DNA from: Polyangiaceae bacterium
Lineage (GTDB): Bacteria; Myxococcota_A; Polyangia; Polyangiales; Polyangiaceae
Reading direction: 5' to 3'
NCBI GenBank assembly: GCA_025937835.1
Contig: JAICQO010000070.1
Coordinates: 1-35,861 of the forward strand
Length of the DNA: 35,861 bases
Below the pieces are notes generated by a model, which saw only the letters and a list, made by a program, of their open reading frames with translations, ran no database searches and was not told where the DNA came from. Below, in pieces: positions 3 through 22,725 of the stretch; the stretch's first letter is position 1, and each line of letters opens with the position of its first letter. The translations under genes were made by a program, and so were the position numbers.

Positions 3-3000
3 TCAGAGCCTGACGCGAATACTCGAGGACAGCGCGTCGTCCGCAGCACGCGCGAAGCTCGCGAACTTCGCATAGGCGTCGGTCTGGATCCGGCCCGCGG
101 GGAGCGAGACCCTGCGATCCAGGACGAGCGCGCCGCCTTCGACGCGGTCCTGAATCACGATCCGCCGGTCGCCATCGCGGATTTCACCCTTGGTGACGTT
201 GGTCGGCGTGTGAGCGCCGGCCGGCAATTTGAGGTTCAGCAGGATCTCTTGCTCGGTGGATTCGACCAGCAAGAGCGGGGTCTGGCGCGCCGGGAGCGCC
301 GCCAGCTGACCGAGCCGCGGCGCGAACGGCGGCGTCACGAGCAGCACGCCGCCCGCCACCTGGGCGAAGGCCGGGACGTGCGAGGTGGTGCGGATCACGA
401 GCGGTTGCTCGGGGGCGCCGAGGTTGACGATCGAGTGGGACTTGAGGCGCGCGCCGCGCAGCGCATAACCGACGAGCCGGCTCTCGACCACGTCGCGGAT
501 CTGTTGCTCGGACATCTCGGCCAGCGCGCCGCGCAGGCCCGCGGCGTAGCGGCCGTACAGGGTGTGCTCGAGCGCGACCTCGGCGCCGCCGTCCTTCTCT
601 AGCTGGACGTCGGCCTTGTACACGACGCGGTCGACGATGCCGTCGGCCGGGACGGTGGCGGAGTCGGTGCCCTGGTCCGTGAAGACGCGCGCCGGCATGC
701 CGCGGGCTTCGGCGGGGACGTAGCCGAAGGGCGCGTGTTTTCCGCCGAACGACAGCCACTGCGTGCCCTGCTCGACCCCGATCCGCAAGAGCGGCAGCGA
801 GAACTGCAACGACTCGGAGAACGGGCCCGTCGGCGGCACGCTCAGGCGGCTCTTGGCGACCCCGTAGTCGATCGGGATTTCGAGCGCGCGGCAGAGAGCG
901 ATGTAGCCGCGCCACAGGTTGCCGTTCCTGCCGATGATCACGCGCCGGCCGTCGTTCTCGCCGCCCTCTTCGACGTTGTTGACGAGCCAGCGGTAGAGGC
1001 GGCGCGCGCGCTCTCTGCGTTTTTCTTTGGGAACCCCGCCCACGATCTGCTCCGCAATGCGGGTGATGCGCGGATCGCGCGGCGTGGGATCGAACGCGCC
1101 GTCGGCCATGGCCTGCACGGTGTTCTCGAGCGACATGCCCCAGCCGGTCTGCAGGCTGGGCAAGAACTCGACGACCGGCGCGCCGAACGGCTCGACCGGC
1201 GCCGCGGGGCTCGAATCCACGCGCCAGCGCCGCACGATCAGCGCGCCGTTCTCTTCGACGGTGGGCGCCGGGACGCCGTTGCGCGTCTCGATCGACAGCG
1301 GCCGGCTCTTGGGCGAGATCATCACGAACTCGCTGCGGGCGTAGGCGATGTTCTCTTCGCGGAAGTACCAGCGCGGGCCGAGGTAACGCTCGCCGCGGCC
1401 CTCGCTCGATTGGTTCTCGATGCGCTCGGTCTCGATGTAGTCGCCGACCTCGAGGTGCGGCAGCGTGAGCGTGGGTTTGCCCTCGACCGGCTCGGGCTCT
1501 AGGATGCGGCCGTCCTTCTTGATCACGCGCAGGTGCAGCACGAGCCCGGGCTTGACCTCTTGCTCGGCCATCTCCGCGATGGCTTCGGCGCTCTGGACGC
1601 GGATGATCTCGTGCTCGAGCATGCGGCTCGAGCCGTCGGCGTGAACCCAGACCACGGCATAGTCGAGCACCCGCGCGGCCGTCCCGGCTTGCTCCTTGCC
1701 GGAGCTCTCGTACTCCGCGATCGCCTGCTTTGCGGGGATCCGATAGGGCTCGAGCTCGCTCATGCCCTCGATTAGATCGATGGCTTCTTCGAGCGGGCCG
1801 GGGGCGGCTCCGGCCTGGATGGCGTCGAGCAACGCCTTGGCGAGCGAGTCCTTCTGGCCGCGCGCCAAGCCGGCGTCCGCGAACTCGAGCCGGGCGCGCG
1901 AGTCCTTGGGGTTCTTCTGGATTGCTGCTTCGAGCTTCTTCCAGGTCTCGCTGTCGTTGCCGGCGCGGACCATCACGTCGTACAGGCGCTCCTCGAAGTC
2001 GTCTTCCTTGCCCTTGGGACGGCGAGCGGCCAGGCGCTTCAGCTCCTTCAGCGCGAGCGCATAGTCCTGCCGCTCGAGCGCACGCCCGAGCCGGATCTCG
2101 AGATCGGGGTTCAGCTTCTGGATGCGATCGACGAGCGCGTCGGCCTCGGCGGTCTTGCCCTGCGCATCGAGCACCGCGATCGCCGGCTCCAGGGACTGCG
2201 GATCTTCGGGGAAACGCCGGGCGAGCTCGAGGGCGGTCCGGGCTTGTTCGGCCTTCCAACCGAGCTCGGCGTACAGACGGCCGAGCTCGCGCAGCACGGA
2301 CGGCACCTCCGGGAACTCGTCGACCAGCTTGGCCACGGCCGCGACGGCCTCGGTGCGGCCAGCGCGCTCCGTCTGTGACAGGGCCAGCATCAGCCGCGGG
2401 TACCAGAGCGCCGGATCGCGCGCGACCGCGCGTTCGTCGAGCTCGCGCGACAGGTCCCGGCGCTGGCCGTCGGAAAAGATCGGATCGGAGCGCGTGAAGA
2501 GCGCGGCCGTCGACAGCGCAGGCCCGCTCGCCTTGTCCAGGCGCGCGATCAGCGGCTCGAGCAGCACGTTCGCGACGTCGGCCTGCGCCTCGAGGTTCGC
2601 GAGCATCGCCGCGATGTATCGGATCACGTCGTCCTCCGGCTCGTGCAACAGCTTGCCCTGGCCGAGGAAGCGATCGAGCACGTTGGCGTCGGGCAGGATC
2701 GCGGGCGGCAGCACTGCATACGGCCTGCGCGCATCGCTCGAGGTCTCGACCCCGAGCGGCCTCCCGTCGGCTTCGAGCAGCCGGATCGAGGTGTTCGGCT
2801 CGGCGAGCCGCGCCACGAGCCGGTGACGGCCCGGACCGAGCTCGACCAGCGCGCCGAAATGCGGCCAGGAGCCCCAGCTCCGCGGATCGCGCTCGAGCAC
2901 GCGCTGATCGTCGACCCACAAGCCGTACGCACCCTGCGCCACGACCAGAACGGGGCGGCCCTTCGGCAGCTCGAAGAACGTCTCCGCGTAGTACACGCCC

Positions 3001-3764
3001 GGCGGCACGCGCTGGCTCGAACCCACGAAGCAGCCGTGGCGCTCGACTTCGCGCTGCGTCGGCGCTTCGGCTCCGCCGTCTTCCTCGGGCCATTGGACGG
3101 GCCAGGGACCGGGCGCCTCGGCCGCGAAGGAGCGCGTGATGTCCGCCTGCGCGTTACGCCCGAACGGGCCGGCCAGGCGCACCTCGCGCGCGCAGCCGTG
3201 CAGCGTCGCGCCCTGCTCGACGACGTCTTTCTGCGCCTCGGACCAGGCCTCTTCTTGCCAGAGATCGACGAGCTTGCTGCGCGCGCGCCAGCCGATCGAA
3301 CGCGGCTCGCGGATCGCGTTCGACACGAACGGCTTCCAGCGGTCGAACAGCTTGGGATCGCTGTGACGGAAGGCCGCGGCCTGCTCGGCCGCGAACCAGG
3401 CGACGAGCGGCGCGTTCCCGTCCGAAGAGTCGCGGGCGGCGGCGAGGGCGTGGAAAAAATGGTCGGAGACCTTGAGCATCCGGCCGTGGAAGACATCGTC
3501 GAGGCCGCGTGCGAGGTGCGCGTACATCGCGCCCGGCCCGCGCCGATCGAGCTCTTTGCGTGCGCGCCGCGCGTGCCGCACCGTGCCGCCCTCGGAGACG
3601 AGCTCCGAGAGCAGCCAATGTCCGAGCACCTCGGGGTCTTGCGAGACTTCGGCCTCGCGCCGCACCTGCTCGGCGCGCGGGCTCTCCGCCGACTTTCCGG
3701 CGCCTGGCGTGCAGCTCGCGATGACGCCCGCGAGCCCCAGCGCAATCAGTCCACGGAACCTCAC
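3..3764 (-). CDS. TPR/DUF3857 lipoprotein with degenerate transglutaminase domain
   Basis: Predicted 1253-residue lipoprotein. The start chosen is GTG at 3764, which overlaps the TGA of the upstream gene (GTGA); it gives a signal peptide with lipobox VIASC and discards a non-coding-looking upstream extension. The N-terminal half (about residues 30-700) is Ala/Leu/Glu-rich helical repeat of TPR type. The C-terminal half has a DUF3857-like beta region (VHADGSSRMLEHEIIRV) followed by a transglutaminase-like fold. Compared with the upstream paralogue, the catalytic Cys position falls on Asn947 (GRNGNLWRGYIAL), and the His and Asp positions are also lost. I infer a non-enzymatic, probably scaffold or binding role in the periplasm. 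The gene is complete: its TGA lies at 3-5. Function is unknown; the family assignment is moderately sure and the pseudoenzyme call rests on manual alignment. Confidence 0.8.
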   Translation of the reverse strand: MRFRGLIALGLAGVIASCTPGAGKSAESPRAEQVRREAEVSQDPEVLGHWLLSELVSEGGTVRHARRARKELDRRGPGAMYAHLARGLDDVFHGRMLKVSDHFFHALAAARDSSDGNAPLVAWFAAEQAAAFRHSDPKLFDRWKPFVSNAIREPRSIGWRARSKLVDLWQEEAWSEAQKDVVEQGATLHGCAREVRLAGPFGRNAQADITRSFAAEAPGPWPVQWPEEDGGAEAPTQREVERHGCFVGSSQRVPPGVYYAETFFELPKGRPVLVVAQGAYGLWVDDQRVLERDPRSWGSWPHFGALVELGPGRHRLVARLAEPNTSIRLLEADGRPLGVETSSDARRPYAVLPPAILPDANVLDRFLGQGKLLHEPEDDVIRYIAAMLANLEAQADVANVLLEPLIARLDKASGPALSTAALFTRSDPIFSDGQRRDLSRELDERAVARDPALWYPRLMLALSQTERAGRTEAVAAVAKLVDEFPEVPSVLRELGRLYAELGWKAEQARTALELARRFPEDPQSLEPAIAVLDAQGKTAEADALVDRIQKLNPDLEIRLGRALERQDYALALKELKRLAARRPKGKEDDFEERLYDVMVRAGNDSETWKKLEAAIQKNPKDSRARLEFADAGLARGQKDSLAKALLDAIQAGAAPGPLEEAIDLIEGMSELEPYRIPAKQAIAEYESSGKEQAGTAARVLDYAVVWVHADGSSRMLEHEIIRVQSAEAIAEMAEQEVKPGLVLHLRVIKKDGRILEPEPVEGKPTLTLPHLEVGDYIETERIENQSSEGRGERYLGPRWYFREENIAYARSEFVMISPKSRPLSIETRNGVPAPTVEENGALIVRRWRVDSSPAAPVEPFGAPVVEFLPSLQTGWGMSLENTVQAMADGAFDPTPRDPRITRIAEQIVGGVPKEKRRERARRLYRWLVNNVEEGGENDGRRVIIGRNGNLWRGYIALCRALEIPIDYGVAKSRLSVPPTGPFSESLQFSLPLLRIGVEQGTQWLSFGGKHAPFGYVPAEARGMPARVFTDQGTDSATVPADGIVDRVVYKADVQLEKDGGAEVALEHTLYGRYAAGLRGALAEMSEQQIRDVVESRLVGYALRGARLKSHSIVNLGAPEQPLVIRTTSHVPAFAQVAGGVLLVTPPFAPRLGQLAALPARQTPLLLVESTEQEILLNLKLPAGAHTPTNVTKGEIRDGDRRIVIQDRVEGGALVLDRRVSLPAGRIQTDAYAKFASFARAADDALSSSIRVRL

Positions 3765-6700
3765 GGCCGCACCACCAATCGCGGCGCCATGGCCCGGTCG
3801 GATGCCTCGCAGAACTTGCGCCAGGCGGCGTAGTCCTTGGGTTGGATGCGGCTCGCGCTGACGACGATCCGGCTCTTCACGGTGATGCGGTCCCTGTTCC
3901 GAGCCACCTCCACCGAGTACGACCCGAACCGGCTGTCTTCCCGGGCTGGCACGGGCGCCGAGATGATCTCGGCTCCGGGCGGCAGCTCGACGGTCACGCT
4001 GTCTTCGGTGGTGGAGAAGCCTTCGGTGAGCACGTCTTGGGAGCGCTTCGAGAGCGACGCGAACTTCGGCGTCAGGCGCAGGTTGGTGGTTACGTCCATC
4101 GACAGCTCGTTGCCCTCTTTGCGCGCGAAGGTTCGGGTGGTGCCCTTGATCCGGATCCGCACCGGCGCTGCGTTGTCGTCGAGATTGCTGGTGGTCAGGC
4201 CGTCGCCGCCCTTGGCCATTTCGAAGCCCGGGTATTGCCCGCCGATGTCGGTGGCGACGCGGTCCCGCAGCGTCGCCGCGGCGTGGTAGCGGCGGCGCCA
4301 CTCGGCCGAGACGAACCCGCCCGTCGCATAGTCGAGATCGAGCTGCGCGGCGCCATTGCCGGAGATCCGCGCGTTGACTGAGCGCTTCACGAAATTCTTC
4401 TCCGGATCGGCCTTCGGCAGCGTGACGAGCTCTCCGCTGTCGGCGCCACCCGGCGTCACCAGCATGCCGAGCGCGCCGAGGTCCATCCGCGGCAGCTCGT
4501 AGATGCCGGTGTGCTCGGCGGTGCCATCGAGATACAGATTGAGCGACGGCACGTAGGCGATGGCGTGGTCGAACGGCGCGAAGCTCGCCAGGTTCGAGCG
4601 GTAGTCGCCGCGCATGCGCGTGCGGAGCACCACGAGCTTCGAGGGGATGCCGAGCTCTTTCAAGAGCGTGACGATCACCGTCGCCTTGTCCTTGCAGTCG
4701 CCCCAGCCGCGCGCGACGGTCTGCACGCAGCGCCGCGGCTTGTAGCCGTAAATGCCGAACTCGAGCGCGACGTAGCGCGTGTTGCGGATCACCCAGTCGT
4801 AGACCGCGGCCACCTTCTCGACCTCGGTCTTCTTACCCCGGGCGATGCTCTGCGCGAGCTTCCGCGTCTCGTCGTCGAGGTCGAACTGATCGCGCACCAG
4901 CCCGGCGTACCAGCGGCCCAGGTCCTTCCAGTTCGCGTAGGTCGAGACCGAGATGAAGCCGACCACCTCTTGCAGCACGGGCATCTCGGGTTCCACGACC
5001 AGCGGCGGCACCGTCCTGGCGACGAAGCGGTGGATGCGGCGGTTGCCCGTGACGGTCGTGGTGTGCTCCACGCCCGCCATCTTCACGTCGGTGTAGATGG
5101 TGCGCGTCTTGGGCGTGTCGAGCACGTACTCGGCGTTGGAGACGGGCTCCGTGCTCTGCAGCGCCACCACCTCACCGAAGTAGTCGGCGAACTCGTTGCG
5201 CGGCGTCACGTCGTCGATGCGATAGCGGAGCTCGACCACGTCGCCCGCCTCGAGCCGCGGGAACTGCACGTAGATGACGCGCGCCGAGGTGTACATCGCG
5301 ATCGACGGATCGTCGGCGTTGCCCTCGCCGCTCTCGATCGCCTCGTCGATCTTGCCGTTTTTCCGGTACACGCGCGCGCCGCGCAGCTGAGCGCGCTGCG
5401 AGTCCGCCTCGTACGCGAACACGTACTGGCGGTCTTCGGTGGCCGCTCCGTCGGTCAGCGGCTGAAACACGATCTGCCGGAATTTGGAGGACAGCCCGTT
5501 CTCGAACACGGTCGAGACGGTGAGGTCCCGCAGCGTGCGGCGGTTCTGCCCCGCGGGCGGCGCGTGCCGCAGGTACAGGAACTTCGACGGCTCCCACGCG
5601 TAGGCCTCGTCGGCGCGCGGGCTGTCGGGCTCGAGGTACTCGACGTACTCGCGCACGTCGGCGTCTTGCGGCCGCACACGCAGCGCGTTGCGGAGCGCCG
5701 CGATCTGCTCGTTGCGCTTGCCGAGCTCGCCGTACAGATCGGCCAGCGTGCGCAGGGTGCCCGCGTCTTCGGGCGCGAGCGACAGCGCGCGCTGATAAGT
5801 CGCGATCGAGCGCTCGTTCTGACCGAGCCGGCGGTAAGCGCGGGCGGCCGTACCGAGCGCCCACAGATCGTGCGGCTCGGTCGCGACCAGGCGCTCGGCC
5901 CAGCGCTCTGCCGCCGCGCGCTCACGCCGGTCGATGGCGAGCTCGAGCTGCCCGGCGAGGTAGCCGCCGTCGTCGAAGCGGAAGCCGTGGTAGCGCGCCT
6001 CGACCTCGGCGGCTTCCGTCGTGCGCCCGAGCGTGCGGAGCTGTGCGGCGTACAGGCCGAGCAGGCCGACCGAATGCGGGCTCTGCTCGAGCGCCCGCTC
6101 GATGCGCGACAGCGCGGTGCGCGGCAGGCCGACCAGGTTGTAGAGCTCCATCCAGCCGCGCAGCCCTTCGAGGCTCAGCGGGTCGATCGAAAGCGCCTGC
6201 TCGAAGTACGGCAGCGCCTCCTGGAAATTGGGGCTGTGGCGGCGGTGCCAGGCCTGCGCGAGCAGCACGTCCCGGTCCGGCTTGCCCTGCTTCTTCGCAA
6301 GCGCGTCGGCGCGCGCGATCCAGTCACCCGCCTGATTGCGATCCTCCGAGAGCTTTCCGGCGAGCAGCGCGCGCTGCACCGTCGGCTCTTTTTCGGCCGC
6401 TCTTCGCGCCAGATCGCGCGCCAGGTGCAGCGCCGGATCGTCCCCGTCGGTCTCGTCGAGATAGCGCGCGTAGCTCTCGAGCGCTGCAGCGCTCGGGTTC
6501 TTACCCGAGGCGGCCGCGCCGAGCGTCTCGAGCGGGCCCCTCGGTCCGGCGCGGTTGGCCTTGGGGTCGGGCTTGTTGGGCTGAGCGAGCTTCAGGCTCT
6601 TGGTGACGAGCTCGGCGGCGGGCTCGGCGTTCTTCAGGTCGTCCGAGTACTCGAGGTTCTCTGCGGGCGCGCCGCGCTCGTCCGCAAAGCGCACTGACAG

Positions 6701-7483
6701 GACCGGCGAGCCCTCGTCGCTGCAGACCTTGACGACGAGCAGGTTCGGCCCCGGCTCGAGCGCGAGCGGCACGGCGATGCGATCGAAGTCGTGCGCGCTG
6801 TAACGATCGTTGCTCTCCACCTCGACGCCGTTCCAGAACACCCGGAGCGCCCCGCCCGTGCCGATCCACGCCGACAATCGCCGCTTGCCCGGCTTCGGGC
6901 CGGCGTCCGAGACGTAGGTGGCGGCGAAACCGCAGACCTTGGCCTCGGGGCGCAGCAGCGCTCCGAAATCGAGAAAGCCGTAAGGGAAAGCGTCGGTCGC
7001 GCTTCGCCAGCGCACCGGCCGTTCGGAGCCCGGGTAGGTCTTCGACGTCACGATCGGCGTCGCGAGGTCGGCCTCCGGTCCGTGCGCCTGGGAGAGCCCG
7101 GTCTTCCCTTCGTTGTCGAACGGCCCGAGCACCAGCCAGCGATCCACGTAGCCAAGGCGCCGTAGCTTTCTCTGCGCCGTGGGAAGATCGCCGCGGCGCA
7201 CGCGCGCGTAAGCCCACAGCGTGCCTGCGTACGCCCGTTCGGCCGGACCGAGCCTGGGCGACTGCTCGGCGAGACCGAGCGCTTCCTCGACCTGGGTCGG
7301 ATCGGCACGATCCCAAGTGCTCCAGACCCGGCGCAAGGCGGCGTAGGCTTCGGCACCGCGCGCGCGGTCGAGCTCGGCGAGCGCGGCCGACAGATCGGGG
7401 TGAAAACGCGAGTCGGCGGCGCTGGCTTGCCCGACGACCATTAAGACCGAAAGCCACAGCGCCGTCAGAAACGACCAGCGCAT
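3761..7483 (-). CDS. TPR/DUF3857/transglutaminase-like exported protein
   Basis: Predicted 1240-residue exported protein. ATG at 7483 follows an AGGGG-type ribosome site and opens a clear signal peptide (MRWSFLTALWLSVLMVVG, cleavage near ASA-AD). A beta-rich region near residues 95-210 is followed by TPR-like helical repeats (about 280-620). A DUF3857-like domain starts with the segment QRAQLRGARVYRKNGKIDEA. The transglutaminase core has Cys930 in GWGDCKDKA, His973 in FDHAIAYVP and Asp986 in YLDGT, the normal Cys-His-Asp order and spacing. The family is uncharacterised; the fold suggests a periplasmic cysteine protease or transglutaminase. It overlaps the downstream paralogue by four bases (GTGA), so the two are probably translated together and arose by tandem duplication. 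Family is sure; substrate is unknown. Confidence 0.85.
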   Translation of the reverse strand: MRWSFLTALWLSVLMVVGQASAADSRFHPDLSAALAELDRARGAEAYAALRRVWSTWDRADPTQVEEALGLAEQSPRLGPAERAYAGTLWAYARVRRGDLPTAQRKLRRLGYVDRWLVLGPFDNEGKTGLSQAHGPEADLATPIVTSKTYPGSERPVRWRSATDAFPYGFLDFGALLRPEAKVCGFAATYVSDAGPKPGKRRLSAWIGTGGALRVFWNGVEVESNDRYSAHDFDRIAVPLALEPGPNLLVVKVCSDEGSPVLSVRFADERGAPAENLEYSDDLKNAEPAAELVTKSLKLAQPNKPDPKANRAGPRGPLETLGAAASGKNPSAAALESYARYLDETDGDDPALHLARDLARRAAEKEPTVQRALLAGKLSEDRNQAGDWIARADALAKKQGKPDRDVLLAQAWHRRHSPNFQEALPYFEQALSIDPLSLEGLRGWMELYNLVGLPRTALSRIERALEQSPHSVGLLGLYAAQLRTLGRTTEAAEVEARYHGFRFDDGGYLAGQLELAIDRRERAAAERWAERLVATEPHDLWALGTAARAYRRLGQNERSIATYQRALSLAPEDAGTLRTLADLYGELGKRNEQIAALRNALRVRPQDADVREYVEYLEPDSPRADEAYAWEPSKFLYLRHAPPAGQNRRTLRDLTVSTVFENGLSSKFRQIVFQPLTDGAATEDRQYVFAYEADSQRAQLRGARVYRKNGKIDEAIESGEGNADDPSIAMYTSARVIYVQFPRLEAGDVVELRYRIDDVTPRNEFADYFGEVVALQSTEPVSNAEYVLDTPKTRTIYTDVKMAGVEHTTTVTGNRRIHRFVARTVPPLVVEPEMPVLQEVVGFISVSTYANWKDLGRWYAGLVRDQFDLDDETRKLAQSIARGKKTEVEKVAAVYDWVIRNTRYVALEFGIYGYKPRRCVQTVARGWGDCKDKATVIVTLLKELGIPSKLVVLRTRMRGDYRSNLASFAPFDHAIAYVPSLNLYLDGTAEHTGIYELPRMDLGALGMLVTPGGADSGELVTLPKADPEKNFVKRSVNARISGNGAAQLDLDYATGGFVSAEWRRRYHAAATLRDRVATDIGGQYPGFEMAKGGDGLTTSNLDDNAAPVRIRIKGTTRTFARKEGNELSMDVTTNLRLTPKFASLSKRSQDVLTEGFSTTEDSVTVELPPGAEIISAPVPAREDSRFGSYSVEVARNRDRITVKSRIVVSASRIQPKDYAAWRKFCEASDRAMAPRLVVRP

Positions 7484-7827
7484 GCCCCTGCCGAACCGGC
7501 GTTCGCACCGGAGCCTTCGACCCGACGATGCATGCGTGCTCGGGATGCCGTTCACCACTTTCGGGTACCCGCAAGCCCGAGCCCGCGCAAGCACCGCGGC
7601 TCGGTTCCTACCGGTCGCAGCCGCGACGGTCCCTGCCCGAACGCGGACCGCTTGCGTGTGGGATGGTGTCCGGACGCCCGAGCCGCCAGTAATCGGGCTT
7701 GCTGGGCCGAGAGCGGTCATATAGAAGTGTTGAGCGCTACGAGGCTTTTTGGCGACCATCCTGCATAATCCAGGTAGAGCGTGACCAGAGCGGCTCAGGT
7801 ATTGGAACAGCGCATCCGGAGGCTCCG
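7484..7827. promoter_or_regulatory. Divergent intergenic region upstream of mglB
   Basis: This 344-bp non-coding stretch separates the leftward TPR/transglutaminase pair from the rightward mglBA operon, so it should hold promoters for both. The part nearest mglB is relatively AT-rich. It holds -10-like hexamers TATAGA at 7720-7725 and CATAAT at 7764-7769, but neither has a convincing -35 at normal spacing. The mglB ribosome site GGAGG is at 7818-7822. No operator repeat or RNA gene was recognised. Confidence 0.4.
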
Positions 7828-15974: not shown

Positions 15975-16925
15975 ATGAGGCGATCATTCGTGCATTACGC
16001 GTGGTGGGTCTGCTTTCTGGGGACGAGTTACGCCAAGGCGGACGCGACGTCACTCGAACAGTTCAGTCCTGCGCCGCCTGGTGATTGGAGCTTCGGCGTC
16101 CAGTCCGCCGAGATCGAGGCGCGATCGTTCGCAGCCCACCTGATCATCGACTATGCGCATGACCCGCTGGTGCTCCGCGCCCGAGGCGAGCGCGTCGGCG
16201 CGGTGATCTCCGACCAGCTCCTCGTGCACGCCGGAGCCGCGTATTCGCTGGCCGAACGCTTGGTGCTCCACCTCGGCGCACCGGTGGTCATTCATCAAAG
16301 CGGCGAAGACCCGGTGGACGAGCCGACCGGGGTCACGGTGGCTTCGCCCGAGGGTGCCGAGCTCGGCGAGCTGTTCCTGGGAGCGCGGGTGAGCCTCTTG
16401 CCTCCCGCGACCACGACGAACGTCGCGCTCGCCGCGCGCATCTTCTTTCCCACGGGTCCCGAGGACTCGTTCATGAGCGACGAGTCGGTGCGCGCGCGCT
16501 TCTCGGTGATCGTGGGGGGCACGGCGGATCGCTTGTCGTGGGCCGTGGAGCCCGGGATCGGCGTGCGGCCCACGCGCTCGCTGCCCGCGACCGAGGCGCC
16601 AGCCAGCGGGACGGCGCTCACGTTCGGTGCGGCCGCCAGTTACCTCGTCGATCGGCGGCGCACGCTGTCGGTCGGCGCTGAGCTGCTCGCGCACAACGTG
16701 TTCGTCGATGGCGCGGAGCTATTCGCCGATCTGGGCGCAGAAATTTTGGCGCAGGCGCGCTTTCGTCCGGGGCGCGGCGACTTCGTTGCGGGGCTCGGTG
16801 CTGGACCGGGTCTCGCCACTTCGCCCGGGGTGCCTCAGCTGCGGGTGCTCGCGTCGGCGACCTACGCGCCGGGCAGCGGACACCAACCGGCCGTGGATCC
16901 TGGCTTCGCAGGAGGTCTGCCGTGA
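15975..16925 (+). CDS. Outer-membrane beta-barrel protein, copy A (TraB-barrel-like)
   Basis: 316-residue exported protein with a signal peptide (MRRSFVHYAWWVCFLGTSYAKA). The mature protein is a run of amphipathic strands broken by short turns, as in an outer-membrane beta-barrel. It opens LEQFSPAPPGDWSFGV and continues LIIDYAHDPLVLRARGERVG, DQLLVHAGAAYSL and HLGAPVVIHQSGEDP. This opening resembles the N-terminal barrel of myxobacterial OmpA-type proteins, including TraB, but the C-terminal OmpA peptidoglycan-binding domain is absent. It ends with strands LRVLASATYAPG and a short hydrophilic tail. The stop overlaps the GTG of the next gene (GTGA), implying translational coupling with the Cys-repeat protein. 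It is a clear paralogue of the barrel at 20807. Barrel topology is likely; the TraB relationship is an inference from recalled sequence. Confidence 0.8.
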   Translation: MRRSFVHYAWWVCFLGTSYAKADATSLEQFSPAPPGDWSFGVQSAEIEARSFAAHLIIDYAHDPLVLRARGERVGAVISDQLLVHAGAAYSLAERLVLHLGAPVVIHQSGEDPVDEPTGVTVASPEGAELGELFLGARVSLLPPATTTNVALAARIFFPTGPEDSFMSDESVRARFSVIVGGTADRLSWAVEPGIGVRPTRSLPATEAPASGTALTFGAAASYLVDRRRTLSVGAELLAHNVFVDGAELFADLGAEILAQARFRPGRGDFVAGLGAGPGLATSPGVPQLRVLASATYAPGSGHQPAVDPGFAGGLP

Positions 16926-19900
16926 AGCAACTCCAAATCGCGATTCGGGTCTTCGTGGTCAGCCTGCTGGTATCGGCGACGAGCTTCGCGCAAACGTTCC
17001 CGGTCGAATCGGCCTGGGTCCCCGTCACGCGCGGCGGCATCACGATCACCGATCCGCTCGGCGACGCCCAGAATTCGCGCGACATCGTCGGCGACGGGAC
17101 GCGGCCCGCCGCATACATCTCGCGCGACCCCAACTACATCTTCTTCCGCTTGCGGGTGAACGCGGATCCGAAGCAGACCGCCAGCAACTTCGCGGCCTTC
17201 GGCTGGGGCGTCGCGCTGGATACGGACGGAAACTCCGACCACTTCGAATACTTGATCATGCTCAACGGCGTGAACAACCCGGACGACGTCTCGCTGTCCA
17301 GGAACAACCCGCTGGGTAACAACGGAGACGCGCGGGATCGCGCCGAGCAAGATCTCGAGTTCTTCAACGTCGCCACGCACGCGCGATCCGACGCGGCAGC
17401 TTCGACGTTCAGCAACAACGCAGACTTCTTCGTGTCCTGGGGAATTCCCGTGAGGGCGTTGAGCGACGCCGGGGTGCTGCTGACCACGCCGATTCGAATG
17501 ATCTTCGGCACGTCGAACAGCGCGCAAACGCTGGGGGCCGATCTGCTCGCGGTGGGCACCAGCGAGGTGATCTCGGAGATCATCAGTGACCCGATCAGCT
17601 GCAGCGGTACGTCTTGCGCCTCGTGCGACGACGCGTGCGGGGAGAACTGCGAGATCTGTGGCGGCGCTACGCCGATCTGTGACGAAGAGCTGGGCGGCTG
17701 CGTCTCGGCTCCCTGTGTGGGAAACAACGACTGCCCCCCGGAGTCGCCGATCTGTCTCGGAAGCGGCGTCTGCGGCGAATGTTCGGCGCAGGATCAGACG
17801 CTGTGCACCGGCAATGAGCCCGTCTGTAACGTCGGGTCGGGTCTGTGCGAGGGCTGCGCTGGGGACCAAGATTGCTTCGATCCGGACTCTCCAGTGTGTT
17901 TGGCGAGCGGCGCTTGCGGCGAGTGCTCTGCCGACAACGACTCCCTGTGCGTCGGCAGCACGCCACGCTGCGATAGCTCTCTCGGCGTCTGCGCCGGCTG
18001 CGCCGAGGATGCGCACTGCGCGGGCCCGATCGAGCCCGCGTGCCAGCCCGACGGCACGTGCGGCGAGTGCTCGGCGAGCAACCGCGATTCGTGCAGCGGC
18101 GCGAAGCCGGCCTGCGATACGGAGATGGGCTTGTGTGTGGCCTGTCGTGGCGACGCAGATTGCCCGTCCCTCGCCGCTCCCGCGTGCCAGCCGGACGGCT
18201 CGTGCGGCGAATGCTCCTCGACCAACGACGGCCTGTGCGTGCTGACCGAGCCGGTCTGTGACATCGCCGCCGGGAGCTGCATCGGCTGCGAAACCAATGA
18301 CGACTGCCTCGACCCGCTGCGTCCGGTGTGCATCGCGGACGGCTCGTGCCGCCAGTGCTCGGAAGAGGACGCGAGCCTCTGCACCGGAACCACGGCCTTC
18401 TGCAACGCCGCGGAGGGTCTCTGCGAGGGTTGTGATTCGGACGCTGATTGCACGAACCCGCTCGCGCCCGTTTGTCGCGAAGACGGCGCCTGCGCCGAGT
18501 GTTCCGCGGAGAAGACCCAGCTGTGTACGGGCGCTGCCCCCGTCTGCGACGTCGAAACAGGCTTGTGCGACGCCTGCAGCTCGGACACGGACTGCACCAA
18601 CGCGGATTTCCCGGCCTGCGAGGAGACCGGGGCGTGCGGCGAATGCTCGGCGACGAACACCAGCCGGTGCACGGGTACGCGGCCGATCTGCGGCGTCGAA
18701 ACCGGAACCTGCGGCGGCTGCAGCACGGATCAGGACTGCGCGGACCCCGACTTCCCCGCGTGTCACGAGAGCGGCGCGTGCACCGAGTGCTCGGGCGACA
18801 ATGACGTGCTGTGCGCGGGCGAGAGCGTGTGCCTGACCGAGCTCGGCAGTTGCACCCTCTTGTGCGAGACGGACAGCGATTGTGACGCGCCCGACTTCCC
18901 CGCCTGTCAGGCCAACGGCTTGTGCGCCCAATGTTCCGAGTCGAACCAGGACTCGTGCGTCGGGAGTCAGCCGCTCTGCAATGTCCAGACTGGCCTGTGT
19001 TACGGCTGCAGCAGCGACGCAGACTGCGGCGGCGAGACCCCCGCGTGCCAGCCGAACAACGTCTGCGGCGAGTGTTCCTCGACCAACGGCTCGCTGTGCG
19101 AGGGGCAGACACCGGTTTGCGACACGGTAGACGGCGAGTGCCGTGCTTGCCGGAGCGACGAGGAATGCACCGACCCCGGAGCGCCCGTGTGCGGTGCCAC
19201 CGGCGCGTGCGTCCAGTGCACAGCCCTCGTGCGCGACGAGTGCGGCGGGCTGACTCCGGCCTGCGACACCGGAGAAGGCGTGTGTGTGGCCTGCCGGAGC
19301 TCGCACGACTGCACCGAGCCGAACGCCCGCGTGTGTCACCCGAGCGGCGTCTGCAGTCAGTGCTCGGCAAGCGACGACAGCGCTTGCCAGGGCGCGACGC
19401 CGGAGTGCAACGCCTCTGGCGGCTTCTGCACGACCGAATGTGCGAGCGACGGGGATTGTCCGGCGGGGACCCCCGTGTGCAGCGCAGGGTTCTGCGCGCA
19501 GTGCTCGGCCGAGAATCAGCGCGCGTGCCTGGGCACGACGCCGGTCTGCGAGGTCGAGTCAGGCGCTTGCAGAGGCTGCGTGACCGACGGCGATTGCCCG
19601 CTCGAGGCGACCCCGGCATGTCTTCCGAGCGGCGCCTGCGCGGAGTGCTCCGCGCAGAACGCCGAGCGCTGCACGGGGTCGAAACCGATCTGCGACGCAG
19701 CCAGCAACCGGTGTGAAGGTTGCCGCTCGGACGCGGATTGTCCTGCTAGCGCGCCGGCTTGTCAGCCCGACGGTAGGTGCGGTCAGTGTAGGCCCGACAA
19801 TCGGCAGCAGTGCAGCGATGCGGCGCCCGCCTGTGACGAGGACAGCGGACTTTGCACGAGCACGTGCGATTCCGACAGCGATTGCTCGGAAGCGTTGCCC

Positions 19901-20758
19901 GTCTGCCTGCGCACGGGTCTGTGCGGCGAATGCTCGTCCAGTGACGAAAGCCGTTGCGGCGGACCGACGCCCCGCTGCGACACCAGGACCGCAACCTGCG
20001 CGGGTTGCAGGCGCGACGCCGACTGCCATGACCCGGCGCGGCCCGCCTGCCAACCCGACGGCTCGTGCGGAGAATGCTCTTCGGGCAACCCGCTGCGCTG
20101 CACGGGGGGTACGCCCGTCTGCGACGTTGGACGCGGAGTCTGCACCGTGGAGTGCGACAGCGACGCCGATTGCAAGCACGCAGCGCGGCCCGCTTGCTCG
20201 GAGCAAAGCGAGTGCGTCGAATGCTCTGCCAGCAACGACTCCCTGTGTCGCGGCGAGGAGCGGTGCAACGTGGACACCGGCGTGTGCGCCTTGCCTTGCT
20301 CGAGTGACAACGACTGTCGAGACACACCCGACGAGCCAGCGTGCCAGCCGAACGGCGTGTGCGGCGAGTGTTCTCGCAGCAACGACTCCGCTTGCGACGG
20401 CGATACACCAACCTGCGACGTGACCGTCGGGAAGTGCGTGCGGGAGCCGTGCCGTTCGGACGCGGACTGCGAGAGCCCGGCCCAGCCCGTGTGTAACGAC
20501 GACGGCCAGTGCGTACAGTGTTCGGAGTCCGACGAGGGTGCTTGCGGCGGCGCGGTCCCGATCTGTGACGAGGAGCACGGGGTGTGCACGCCCGCGGAGC
20601 CAATCGACACAGAGGATCCGCCGGGCGTCGATTTCGAAGGCGGCGGCTGCGCTTGCAGAACGACGCCCGGGCCTCACCCGTCCATGGTGAAGTCGCTCGG
20701 CTTGCTCGCCGTTGGTCTCGGCCTCTGGTGGCGCCGCAGGCGCGCGATCAGAGCATGA
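16922..20758 (+). CDS. Giant Cys-repeat surface protein with MYXO-CTERM tail, copy A
   Basis: 1278-residue secreted, cell-surface protein. The start is GTG 16922, overlapping the barrel stop. The layout is: signal peptide 1-23; an N-terminal beta-rich domain (about 24-225) with the acidic motif ALDTDGNSDHFEYL, possibly Ca-binding, and FFVSWGIPVRAL; an irregular Cys cluster (about 226-281); and 20 tandem repeats of about 47 residues (282-1222). The tail at about 1240-1278 is GGGCACRTTPG, a hydrophobic helix and WRRRR, matching the MYXO-CTERM signal that myxosortases process for outer-surface anchoring. A typical repeat is GxCGECSxxNxxxCxGxxPxCD, then xxGxCxGCxxDxDCxxPxxPxC, with about eight Cys, all presumably disulphide-bonded. 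The architecture parallels TraA of the outer-membrane-exchange system, which also has Cys-rich repeats and a MYXO-CTERM tail. A role as adhesin or receptor is inferred. Confidence 0.88.
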   Translation: MKQLQIAIRVFVVSLLVSATSFAQTFPVESAWVPVTRGGITITDPLGDAQNSRDIVGDGTRPAAYISRDPNYIFFRLRVNADPKQTASNFAAFGWGVALDTDGNSDHFEYLIMLNGVNNPDDVSLSRNNPLGNNGDARDRAEQDLEFFNVATHARSDAAASTFSNNADFFVSWGIPVRALSDAGVLLTTPIRMIFGTSNSAQTLGADLLAVGTSEVISEIISDPISCSGTSCASCDDACGENCEICGGATPICDEELGGCVSAPCVGNNDCPPESPICLGSGVCGECSAQDQTLCTGNEPVCNVGSGLCEGCAGDQDCFDPDSPVCLASGACGECSADNDSLCVGSTPRCDSSLGVCAGCAEDAHCAGPIEPACQPDGTCGECSASNRDSCSGAKPACDTEMGLCVACRGDADCPSLAAPACQPDGSCGECSSTNDGLCVLTEPVCDIAAGSCIGCETNDDCLDPLRPVCIADGSCRQCSEEDASLCTGTTAFCNAAEGLCEGCDSDADCTNPLAPVCREDGACAECSAEKTQLCTGAAPVCDVETGLCDACSSDTDCTNADFPACEETGACGECSATNTSRCTGTRPICGVETGTCGGCSTDQDCADPDFPACHESGACTECSGDNDVLCAGESVCLTELGSCTLLCETDSDCDAPDFPACQANGLCAQCSESNQDSCVGSQPLCNVQTGLCYGCSSDADCGGETPACQPNNVCGECSSTNGSLCEGQTPVCDTVDGECRACRSDEECTDPGAPVCGATGACVQCTALVRDECGGLTPACDTGEGVCVACRSSHDCTEPNARVCHPSGVCSQCSASDDSACQGATPECNASGGFCTTECASDGDCPAGTPVCSAGFCAQCSAENQRACLGTTPVCEVESGACRGCVTDGDCPLEATPACLPSGACAECSAQNAERCTGSKPICDAASNRCEGCRSDADCPASAPACQPDGRCGQCRPDNRQQCSDAAPACDEDSGLCTSTCDSDSDCSEALPVCLRTGLCGECSSSDESRCGGPTPRCDTRTATCAGCRRDADCHDPARPACQPDGSCGECSSGNPLRCTGGTPVCDVGRGVCTVECDSDADCKHAARPACSEQSECVECSASNDSLCRGEERCNVDTGVCALPCSSDNDCRDTPDEPACQPNGVCGECSRSNDSACDGDTPTCDVTVGKCVREPCRSDADCESPAQPVCNDDGQCVQCSESDEGACGGAVPICDEEHGVCTPAEPIDTEDPPGVDFEGGGCACRTTPGPHPSMVKSLGLLAVGLGLWWRRRRAIRA
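17765..20587 (+). repeat. 20 tandem Cys-rich repeats of about 141 bp
   Basis: 2823 bp encode 941 residues, an average of 47 per unit, each opening with a GxCxxCS-type segment. The DNA copies are clearly diverged from one another, with only short shared words such as TGCGGCGAATGCTC, so this is an old in-frame expansion kept by selection rather than recent slippage. Units 8, 12, 15, 17, 18 and 19 vary in the central Cys pair, with two or three residues inserted before the second Cys (CTLLC, CTTEC, CTSTC, CTVEC, CALPC, CVREPC) in place of CxxC. Confidence 0.9.
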
Positions 20759-20806
20759 CACCGGGCTTCATTTCCCTTACCGTCTGGCCTCGATTCAGGG
20801 ACGGAC

Positions 20807-21697
20807 GTGACGAGACTCGGGGTAAAGATTGCGTGCGCGGCTTGGCTCGGGGCCGGGGTGGCGCGCGCGCAAGTCTTCGAACAGTTCACGCCGACACCCG
20901 CGGGTGACTTCAGTCTGGGCGTCGAGTCGGCAGGGATCGAGACCGAAGGCGTTGCCGCGTCGGTCGTCCTGGATTACGCGCGAGATCCGGTCCTCTTGCG
21001 TTCTGGCGGCGAGCGCGTGGGCGCGATTCTGTCGGACCAACTGGCGGCGCATTTCGGCGTGTCCGCGTCGCTGCACGGCCGAGTGGTCTTCTTCGTGAAC
21101 GCGCCGTTCATCCTCCATCAAAAGGGCGACGATCCCTACGACGAGCGGAACGGCTTCGGCTGGGAGTCCCCGAGCGACAGGGAGCTCGGCAACGTGAGCG
21201 TCGGGGCGCGGGTCGCGCTGCGCCTGCAGCGTCCGGGGTCGGTCGGTGTGGCGCTCTCGAGCCGCTTCTTCTTTCCTTCGGGAGACCAGGAGTCGTACGT
21301 GAACGACGGCTCGGCGGCTTCGGTATTCAGCGCCGTGGTTGGCGCGTCGGAAGAGCGCTGGTGGTGGGCGATCCAGCTGGGGCTCGCGCCGCCCTTCGAC
21401 CTCTGGGACGAAGACTGGGAGACGTTCGGTCTGAGGTTCGGCGCGGCCTTCGCCTACTTCCTCGAGCAGAGCCGGCGTGTGGCGCTCGGGGCGGAGCTGC
21501 GCGCGGCACAGCCGCTCGACCGTTACGGTTGGCACGAACCAAGCGTCGAAGCGCTGGCCGAAGGGCGTCTACGATTGGGTCACGGGGACTGGTACGTGTC
21601 TGCCGCGGCCGGACCTGGCCTCACTCGGCCTGTCGGTGTGCCCCTGTTTCGTGCAGTGCTCGGGTTGAGCTTTGCGCCCGGAGGCGAGCGACCATGA
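20807..21697 (+). CDS. Outer-membrane beta-barrel protein, copy B
   Basis: 296-residue paralogue of the barrel at 15975. It starts with GTG at 20807 after CAGGGACG and has a signal peptide ending GVARAQ. Matching landmarks are VFEQFTPTPAGDFSLGVESA, VVLDYARDPVLLRSGGERVG, SDQLAAHFGVSASL, APFILHQKGDDP, LGNVSVGARVAL, SRFFFPSGDQESYVND and the final strand LFRAVLGLSFAPGG. It likewise has no OmpA domain. It begins 48 bp after copy A of the Cys-repeat gene and its stop overlaps the next start (ATGA). The operon therefore repeats the barrel-then-Cys-protein order. Trp and Phe/Tyr residues at strand ends (RWWWAIQLG) fit an outer-membrane girdle. Confidence 0.8.
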   Translation: MTRLGVKIACAAWLGAGVARAQVFEQFTPTPAGDFSLGVESAGIETEGVAASVVLDYARDPVLLRSGGERVGAILSDQLAAHFGVSASLHGRVVFFVNAPFILHQKGDDPYDERNGFGWESPSDRELGNVSVGARVALRLQRPGSVGVALSSRFFFPSGDQESYVNDGSAASVFSAVVGASEERWWWAIQLGLAPPFDLWDEDWETFGLRFGAAFAYFLEQSRRVALGAELRAAQPLDRYGWHEPSVEALAEGRLRLGHGDWYVSAAAGPGLTRPVGVPLFRAVLGLSFAPGGERP

Positions 21698-22725
21698 CTC
21701 GTGCCGTGGTGTGGCTCTGGTGCGTCGCGGCGGTCGTCGCATCGGCGCCTCCGGCTCGCGCTCAAAATTTCCCGCGAGCCGACTCGCGCTGGGTGGTGGT
21801 CACCCGAGACGGCGCGGCGGTTCGCGATCCGGGTGACGACGCCGTGGGCGAGCGCGATGTGTTGGGTGGGCCGGGCTACCCGGCTGCTTATGTCGCGCGC
21901 AACGCCACGTTCCTGTTCTTTCGCTTGCGCGTGGCGGGAGACCCGATGGACGCCGCCGGTGCGAGCCTGTCTTCGGCTTGGGGGGCGGCACTGGACACCG
22001 ACCGCGATGCCGACCATTTCGAGTTTCTGGCGACGGCGACGGAGCTCGACTCCGCCGGGCGCGTGGCTTTATCGGAGAACTCCGAGCCCGGTGCTGGCGA
22101 CGACGCGCGCGACGTCGTGGAGACGCAAATCGCCGACTATTCCGGCGCGCGCGCAATGAGGGTGGACGTCGCGCCGCCGACCGTGAGCGGGGTCTCGAGC
22201 TACTTCGTCTCCTGGGCCGTTCGAGCCGACGAGCTGCCATTGGACCGTCCGATACGGCTGTTCTTCGGCAGCTCGAGCAGCCCGAATCGGCTCGACGGCG
22301 ATTTGTTCGGCGGTGACTCGAGCTCGCTCTCCGAGATCCTGAGCGACTCGCTGGATTGCTCCGGAGAAAGCTGCGTGCCTTGCGCGGCGGCCTGCGGCGA
22401 AGAGTGCCTGATTTGCGAAGGCACGACGCCCGTGTGCAACCTCGACGCGGGCGCTTGCGAAGCCTGTGACGCGGACGAAGACTGTCTGGATCCGAGCGCG
22501 CCGCGCTGCGACTCGGACGGAGCGTGTCGCGAAGCGGACCCGAGCGATTGCGATCCTTTCACCAACACCTTCTGCGAGCCGGAGCAGCTGAGCACGACCG
22601 GCGGCGCTTGTGAGTGCCGTGCAGCACCTGGCTCCGAGCGCTCTGCAGCGTCGTTCGTCGCGCTGGCCCTCGCGCTCGGCGCTCTTCGGGCGCGGCGGGG
22701 GCGGCGAACGACGCTGCGAGACTGA
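21694..22725 (+). CDS. Short Cys-motif surface protein with MYXO-CTERM tail, copy B
   Basis: 343-residue paralogue of the giant Cys-repeat protein. ATG 21694 overlaps the barrel stop; the signal peptide ends APPARAQ. The N-terminal domain aligns with copy A along its length: NFPRADSRWVVVTRDG, YPAAYVARNATFLFFRLRV, ALDTDRDADHFEFL, SSYFVSWAVRADELPLDRPI and LFFGSSSSPNRLDGDLF. The Cys cluster CSGESCVPCAAACGEECLIC is conserved too. In place of 20 repeats there is about one (TTPVCNLDAGACEACDADED and onward). The tail GGACECRAAPG, a hydrophobic helix and RARRGRR is a MYXO-CTERM-type sorting signal. Its conserved N-domain suggests the same ligand-binding or assembly role on a short stalk. Confidence 0.85.
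   Translation: MTRAVVWLWCVAAVVASAPPARAQNFPRADSRWVVVTRDGAAVRDPGDDAVGERDVLGGPGYPAAYVARNATFLFFRLRVAGDPMDAAGASLSSAWGAALDTDRDADHFEFLATATELDSAGRVALSENSEPGAGDDARDVVETQIADYSGARAMRVDVAPPTVSGVSSYFVSWAVRADELPLDRPIRLFFGSSSSPNRLDGDLFGGDSSSLSEILSDSLDCSGESCVPCAAACGEECLICEGTTPVCNLDAGACEACDADEDCLDPSAPRCDSDGACREADPSDCDPFTNTFCEPEQLSTTGGACECRAAPGSERSAASFVALALALGALRARRGRRTTLRD

Follow-up and report, generated by a model that had tools for sequence, protein, structure and literature searches.

What is the function of an operon in which outer-membrane barrels alternate with Cys-rich proteins? The question is raised by four genes (positions 15975-22725, forward strand) in a 35,861-nucleotide stretch of DNA from a Polyangiaceae bacterium (contig JAICQO010000070.1, assembly GCA_025937835.1), here called the window; the source genome is a draft of 6.9 Mb in 227 contigs, 95.8% complete. 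The genes follow one another as barrel B1, Cys-protein C1, barrel B2 and Cys-protein C2 (Table 1), with 48 nucleotides between C1 and B2, and their coordinates bear out the tight alternation with GTGA and ATGA overlaps described in an earlier model-made annotation of the sequence (the original prediction). To our knowledge, TraAB is the only well-studied stalked MYXO-CTERM receptor that works with a barrel, and the original prediction proposed a TraAB-like device of a new type for self-recognition, adhesion or exchange. The balance tips slightly toward a more restricted answer: the operon would encode two TraAB-like adhesin complexes, with conserved lectin-like heads and the receptor on the barrel, that are adhesive without membrane fusion. 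Computed directly were the domain content, the folds of B1 and of the C1 head, the C1 sorting tag, the linkage of the two families, the duplication of the pair and the absence of OmpA.

The link to TraAB begins with the barrels. B1 belongs to the TraB barrel family: it matches the NCBIfam TraB model NF033763 with an E-value of 1.8e-9 over model positions 22-298 of 522, corresponding to the barrel half, while B2, 42% identical to B1, matches at 0.013. The scores (36.1 and 13.5 bits) do not reach the curated cut-off of 700 bits, which the TraB reference proteins themselves also miss (516-612 bits). Furthermore, a barrel hidden Markov model (HMM) built without any TraB locus recovers five TraB barrels at 9e-46 to 9e-53. 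The AlphaFold2 model of B1, made from a 16-sequence alignment, is a confident 12-stranded outer-membrane barrel (mean predicted local distance difference test, pLDDT, 86; predicted template modelling score, pTM, 0.83), so that the non-membrane fold feared beforehand is not seen. Its best match among solved structures is FapF (Z 22.6), followed by a COG4313 channel (Z 21.7), the oligosaccharide porins KdgM (Z 19.6) and NanC (Z 18.8), and autotransporter translocators such as NalP and EspP (Z about 15-20). Both proteins terminate at the barrel, and a Pfam scan (E up to 1) returned no match, hence no OmpA or TSP3 domain; the half of TraB that carries TSP3 and OmpA is missing, as the original prediction had noted for OmpA.

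The Cys-proteins share a head of about 205 residues that is 42-43% identical between C1 and C2, which agrees with the conserved N-terminal domain first noticed in both, and which has no match in Pfam or NCBIfam at E up to 1. In the AlphaFold2 model of C1, block means of pLDDT lie for the most part between 80 and 98 as far as model residue 210, although some patches are weaker, and the stalk part is of low confidence. The modelled head is a CBM9/DOMON-like beta-sandwich, and carbohydrate binding is only predicted from it. It matches the C-terminal part of glucodextranase (1ug9, Z 11.9), the gamma subunit of ethylbenzene dehydrogenase (2ivf_C, Z 9.2), Sas6/CBM74 (Z 9.1) and CBM9 (1i82, Z 7.0). 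The first, second and last of these, which we take to be one CBM9/DOMON-like group, are 7-12% identical in sequence to the C1 head. Of the 170 Cys of C1, all except four lie in the stalk; the C2 stalk, by eye, has one or two Cys units. Signal peptides were recognized by eye in both proteins. The tails had been called MYXO-CTERM-type, and for C1 this holds by TIGR03901 (26.7 bits, cut-off 20); the C2 tail, without an HMM hit at E up to 1, was recognized by eye from the same three parts.

Table 1. Coordinates of the barrel/Cys-protein operon in the window, with the related single open reading frames (ORFs)
Feature	Position	Strand	Description
B1	15975..16925	+	TraB-like 12-stranded outer-membrane barrel, 316 amino acids; signal peptide by eye; no TSP3/OmpA tail
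B1 stop/C1 start	16922..16925	+	GTGA overlap
C1	16922..20758	+	1278 amino acids: signal peptide (by eye), head, Cys stalk, MYXO-CTERM
C1 head	16994..17617	+	CBM9/DOMON-like beta-sandwich (AlphaFold2 model and structure matches)
C1 stalk	17621..20626	+	1002 amino acids, 166 Cys, about 20 units of about 48 amino acids
C1 sorting tag	20639..20743	+	MYXO-CTERM, TIGR03901 at residues 1240-1274
B2	20807..21697	+	Second TraB-like barrel, 296 amino acids, no TSP3/OmpA tail (from identity to B1 and tree)
B2 stop/C2 start	21694..21697	+	ATGA overlap
C2	21694..22725	+	Short putative surface protein, 343 amino acids; head of the C1 family, short stalk, MYXO-CTERM-like tail
C2 head	21766..22374	+	Identity to C1 head; sister in tree
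C2 tail	22600..22722	+	MYXO-CTERM-like by eye: GGACEC, hydrophobic stretch, Arg-rich cluster
Single-ORF relatives (17)			L089, L092, L096, L103, L121, L128, L164, L187, L190, L192, L193, L194, L197, L199-L202

How far does the likeness to TraAB extend? In M. xanthus, traA precedes and overlaps traB (PMC3325183), and TraA comes first in all four control loci (L230-L233), with a four-base overlap at the mechanically assigned start in three; the window order is thus the reverse, as had been proposed. Neither C1 nor C2 hits the TraA N-terminal models TIGR04566 and NF033759 at E up to 1, whereas the real TraA of two control loci (L232 and L230) match TIGR04566 at 9.5e-95 and 2.4e-65. TraA homology of the heads was rejected, since hhalign, run with the N-terminal regions of four TraA and the aligned heads, returned a probability of 0.1%. 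The HMM comparison proposed earlier for the TraA, TraB and OmpA families therefore finds the barrel half of TraB in B1, and neither the TraA N-terminal domain nor OmpA. The window proteins are not TraA and not a complete TraB; what stands of the TraAB parallel is a barrel of the TraB family, a stalked MYXO-CTERM partner and their linkage in relatives.

That linkage is found well outside the window. The C1 head matches in 31 of 183 genomes of the order (E 0.01), and a head profile in at least 93 of 377 genomes drawn from the phylum (E 1e-4). The loci examined comprise, from the 47 matches of the order search, the two of the window and 43 others in 38 regions (G166 and G060:C587 were left out), the phylum profile matches in 40 regions, mostly best-scoring, and 25 more loci from named records, among them a Desulfuromonas and a Candidatus Wallbacteria bin; short copies (L131-L163) were left out of the pairing counts and the head tree, and identical heads were counted once. 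A same-strand TraB-like barrel lies within 3.5 kb of 33 of the 92 distinct heads with surroundings; a further 17 share one ORF with a barrel, two are those of the window, 30 are without such a barrel and 10 are cut. We estimate that this exceeds chance, since at a density of, for example, 10 barrels in 13.3 Mb (genome G148) a barrel on the same strand would be expected that close to only about 0.3% of genes. The two families thus co-occur in other genomes, the outcome on which the original prediction had staked itself, both as neighbors and in one ORF. Among the separate head proteins, 63 have a complete end, counting the two of the window, and a loose text pattern detects a MYXO-CTERM-type tail in 55 of these. 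The remaining eight include L112, L119 and L127, which have no barrel near and come from records bearing names of other phyla (Desulfuromonas, Proteobacteria and Candidatus Wallbacteria). Eighteen of the 30 barrel-free heads belong to one genus (g43), where loci L075 and L080-L083 each have two same-strand head proteins close by with MYXO-CTERM tails; genomes with these paired proteins also match the TraA N-terminal model.

On the barrel side, a B1 match occurs in at least 162 of the 183 genomes of the order; a contig search with B1 as query found no relative. The genome of the window has several further TraB-like barrels, none above the TraB cut-off. Pfam finds OmpA in nine of ten barrel proteins scanned (nine head-linked, one from the window's own genome), the tenth (L089) being cut by a contig end. 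Among head-linked barrels only the two of the window stop at the barrel; L089, L103 and L189, truncated where their contigs stop, do not show whether they carry OmpA, and in L199 domains of the TSP3-like and other types are followed, by eye, by a degenerate OmpA-like end. OmpA loss as a feature unique to the window was rejected, since TraB-like barrels elsewhere in the order also lack it: two end at the barrel (L204, 5876-6910; L205, 4217-5155) and three keep only a TSP3-like tail by eye (L206-L208). The L204 barrel gene overlaps that of a DUF3078 protein. A further nine loci with OmpA barrels were picked from the strong hits in large contigs rather than at random, and four of them adjoin a MYXO-CTERM protein without this head (L215, L216, L217 and L220); L222, whose partner is cut off, is probably a fifth, and the other four do not. 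The TraB-like barrel may be a general partner of MYXO-CTERM proteins. In another family, L099 (3030-13603) is an independent double arrangement of a barrel, a MYXO-CTERM protein with TSP_C and Ig-like domains and no head match, a head protein and a barrel.

More surprising than the operon itself are these relatives, with a single head family that has no name and the 17 single-ORF forms. The latter share one layout, in which head and stalk lead into an internal MYXO-CTERM-like tag, a second signal peptide follows, and the barrel and usually OmpA complete the chain. Inspection by eye shows a Cys motif at the end of the stalk in all 17, then a hydrophobic stretch and a cluster of Arg; 0 to about 25 residues further on comes another hydrophobic stretch, which bears a signal-peptidase-like site and leads into the barrel. 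The pattern is least clear in L202. An automated hydropathy test recovers tag and second signal in 12 of 17; in the rest of the stalk, used as control, 16 of 17 have no hydrophobic segment and L192 has two. A text pattern finds the same arrangement in 13 of 17, against none of the 17 remaining stalks, and TIGR03901, applied to 10 of the 17 internal segments, gives E <0.05 in nine and reaches its cut-off in three. Could the barrel instead be translated from an internal start? In three of 17 the stretch examined contains none of the start codons ATG, GTG and TTG; a start preceded by a ribosome-site-like motif is present in two and lacking in 15. An autotransporter reading of these forms was dropped, given the tag and second signal peptide between stalk and barrel. 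MXAN_5598 of M. xanthus joins adhesin, MYXO-CTERM tag, barrel and OmpA in one gene; its authors suggest that two genes were fused and that the N-terminal part is processed (PMC11980579). In the sources consulted the single-ORF plan is in print for MXAN_5598 only; a title search, with most subscription journals outside its reach, found no published survey of such genes or of this head. The single-ORF forms point to cleavage of MYXO-CTERM tags in mid-chain, as has been proposed for MXAN_5598 (PMC11980579).

In quick trees, B1 and B2 are sisters (Shimodaira-Hasegawa-like approximate likelihood ratio support 99), and so are the C1 and C2 heads (95). Because of these groupings and the identities within each family, one barrel/Cys pair was probably duplicated as a unit. 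B1 and B2 lie among generic barrels of the family, and their nearest group (85) consists of L221 and an OmpA barrel from the same genome (contig C8; L104:9269-12090), which overlaps the start of a gene for a 412-amino-acid protein without a MYXO-CTERM-type tail. Five TraB group in a separate clade (99), with B1 and B2 outside. On the barrel tree, pairing with a head needs 14 label changes and the single-ORF state eight (shuffled means 27.1 and 14.2), of which the starred branches force at least 10 and at least seven; the head tree needs 20 and 10, with eight and three forced. Judging from these counts, in quick trees of short, divergent domains, pairing and fusion have changed repeatedly.

How would the pairs work? 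By analogy with TraAB, we infer a surface location, a lipid anchor, a receptor-barrel complex, glycan binding and adhesion. C1 or C2 would be exported with its MYXO-CTERM tag as a lipid-anchored stalked receptor and sit on B1 or B2, holding out a conserved lectin-like head to bind a glycan or another constant surface ligand. C1 would reach far on its long disulfide-rich stalk, while C2 would stay close to the membrane. Because the barrels have no peptidoglycan-binding OmpA tail, the complexes would be laterally mobile and adhesive and would not drive membrane fusion. In M. xanthus, TraA and TraB are found 1:1, with anchorage of the complex to peptidoglycan attributed to the OmpA domain of TraB (PMC12045341); when TraB lacks OmpA, the adhesin is still active and membrane exchange is defective (PMC8651087). 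Of the three functions originally named, adhesion is the best supported.

Several observations weigh against this proposal. The head fold matches are structural only (best Foldseek E 3.2e-3), and a common fold demonstrates no function for the modelled C1 head. The likeness of the C1 stalk to TraA repeats is weak: it scores 17.4 bits against TIGR04201 (Myxo_Cys_RPT), below the cut-off of 25, and a blastp match of C1 to TraA (1.6e-5) is not significant in a bias-corrected HMM search (E 2), although the stalk of the relative L106 matches the TraA model at 8.7e-62. Because 30 of the 92 heads have no same-strand barrel near, a head does not always need such a partner. In the trees, the barrels of the window fall with generic ones rather than with head-paired clades and the heads branch elsewhere, because of which the head-barrel pairing of the window may be recent or independent. 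The head comparisons used below are between species and not strains. In favor of the proposal, TIGR04566, above its cut-off in 14 of the 183 genomes of the order, has no match in the window's own genome, but this absence rests on a 95.8% complete draft. TraA and barrel-linked heads are suggested to be mutually exclusive within the order, a pattern confounded by kinship. Two TraA N-terminal model matches each were seen in G147, G148, G150-G152 and G162-G164, several with the second in a shorter frame (about 430-530 amino acids).

Which other functions could account for the pairs? The barrel might be the outer-membrane exit for its Cys-protein, as in the amyloid exporter FapF, two-partner or autotransporter systems. 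The polypeptide transporter FapF is indeed the best structural match of B1, with NalP and EspP also recovered, and the barrel gene precedes its partner with a translational overlap. However, most of the heads with no barrel near are tagged all the same, and in the single-ORF forms, unlike in an autotransporter, the halves are separated by a tag followed by another signal peptide; we regard export by the barrel as unlikely.

Slightly less likely still is a role in glycan capture, in which a lectin lipoprotein would feed oligosaccharides to an open 12-strand porin, much as SusD feeds SusC. The CBM9/DOMON-like head and the matches of B1 to KdgM and NanC would suit such uptake. However, a stalk as long as that of C1 would keep the head a long way from the pore, the barrels linked to heads in relatives mostly bear an OmpA wall anchor, for which a porin has no need, and the 15 other window ORFs scanned contain no glycoside hydrolase family, with an ArsA-type ATPase as the only transport-related name.

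The overall TraAB-like plan would suit a self-recognition or membrane-exchange device, which the window pairs probably are not; we consider either function improbable. Eight comparisons were made among relatives, three of them on heads that lack a barrel and with one row serving in two. In seven, the head equals or exceeds the rest of the protein in conservation, and in the eighth the values are 69 vs 70%, unlike a TraA control pair, in which the head is more variable (69%) than the stalk (83%). This speaks against self-recognition, as does the profile comparison that separates the head from the TraA N-terminal region. Exchange is disfavored because OmpA-less TraB adheres and is exchange-defective (PMC8651087), and both window barrels lack OmpA. 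Decay of the paralogues, with the OmpA tails lost as the system degenerated, is very improbable: OmpA is absent from both barrels, the C2 stalk is almost gone and the end branches of B2 and C2 are longer than those of B1 and C1 (1.03 vs 0.45 and 1.07 vs 0.33), but the four ORFs are open with tight overlaps, signal peptides and tails (by eye), and C1 retains its stalk Cys in regular units.

Taking the two adhesin complexes together with their relatives, a broader view is held tentatively, at rather less than even odds: the pairs would belong to an undescribed, Myxococcota-wide family of lectin-headed TraAB relatives, made as two genes or as one polyprotein. In the latter, tag and second signal peptide would form a hairpin sharing the Arg-rich loop and be cut on both sides, giving receptor and barrel 1:1. 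The window would then be a duplicated, peptidoglycan-free form, a natural OmpA-less and adhesion-only TraB with a long and a short reach. If the pairs work like TraAB, there would be a general Myxococcota adhesin plan in which heads are swapped on a common barrel, with TraAB kin recognition as one specialized case, and the OmpA-less barrels would make it possible to test in a natural system if anchoring to peptidoglycan is the difference between adhesion and membrane exchange. To call the operon a new type is nevertheless too strong, because MXAN_5598 already combines adhesin, MYXO-CTERM tag, barrel and OmpA (PMC11980579).

Among the neighbors of the operon are genes with housekeeping roles, namely those for RNase E/G and alanine racemase, riboflavin genes and nusB. 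On the reverse strand (3-7759) are two large adjoining ORFs with DUF3857, one additionally with TPR and transglutaminase domains. A terminator scan of the window found four, at chance level (mean 4.2), and a promoter scan found a single promoter-like site, on the strand opposite to the operon.

How, then, does the operon compare with known systems? A literature search for MtsC with cohesion found no paper. Channels of the FapF/COG4313 type have the 12-strand fold of B1, with 10-13% identity and different partners, and export by B1 is only putative. CBM9/DOMON-like domains share the modelled fold of the C1 head, and the C1 and C2 heads have no sequence-family match. MXAN_5598, by its published description, resembles the 17 single-ORF relatives in joining adhesin, tag, barrel and OmpA as one unit, and differs from the window in being one ORF and in having OmpA (PMC11980579). 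The OmpA-deleted TraB of M. xanthus, like the window barrels, stands beside a receptor without a wall anchor, but it is engineered and its receptor is TraA (PMC8651087). TraA/TraB itself shares with the window two overlapping genes, the same barrel family and a stalked, Cys-rich MYXO-CTERM partner. In the window, however, the gene order is reversed, the barrels are without TSP3 and OmpA and the pair is duplicated, and the predicted CBM9/DOMON-like head takes the place where TraA has a variable domain described as a distant relative of PA14 (PMC6372800).
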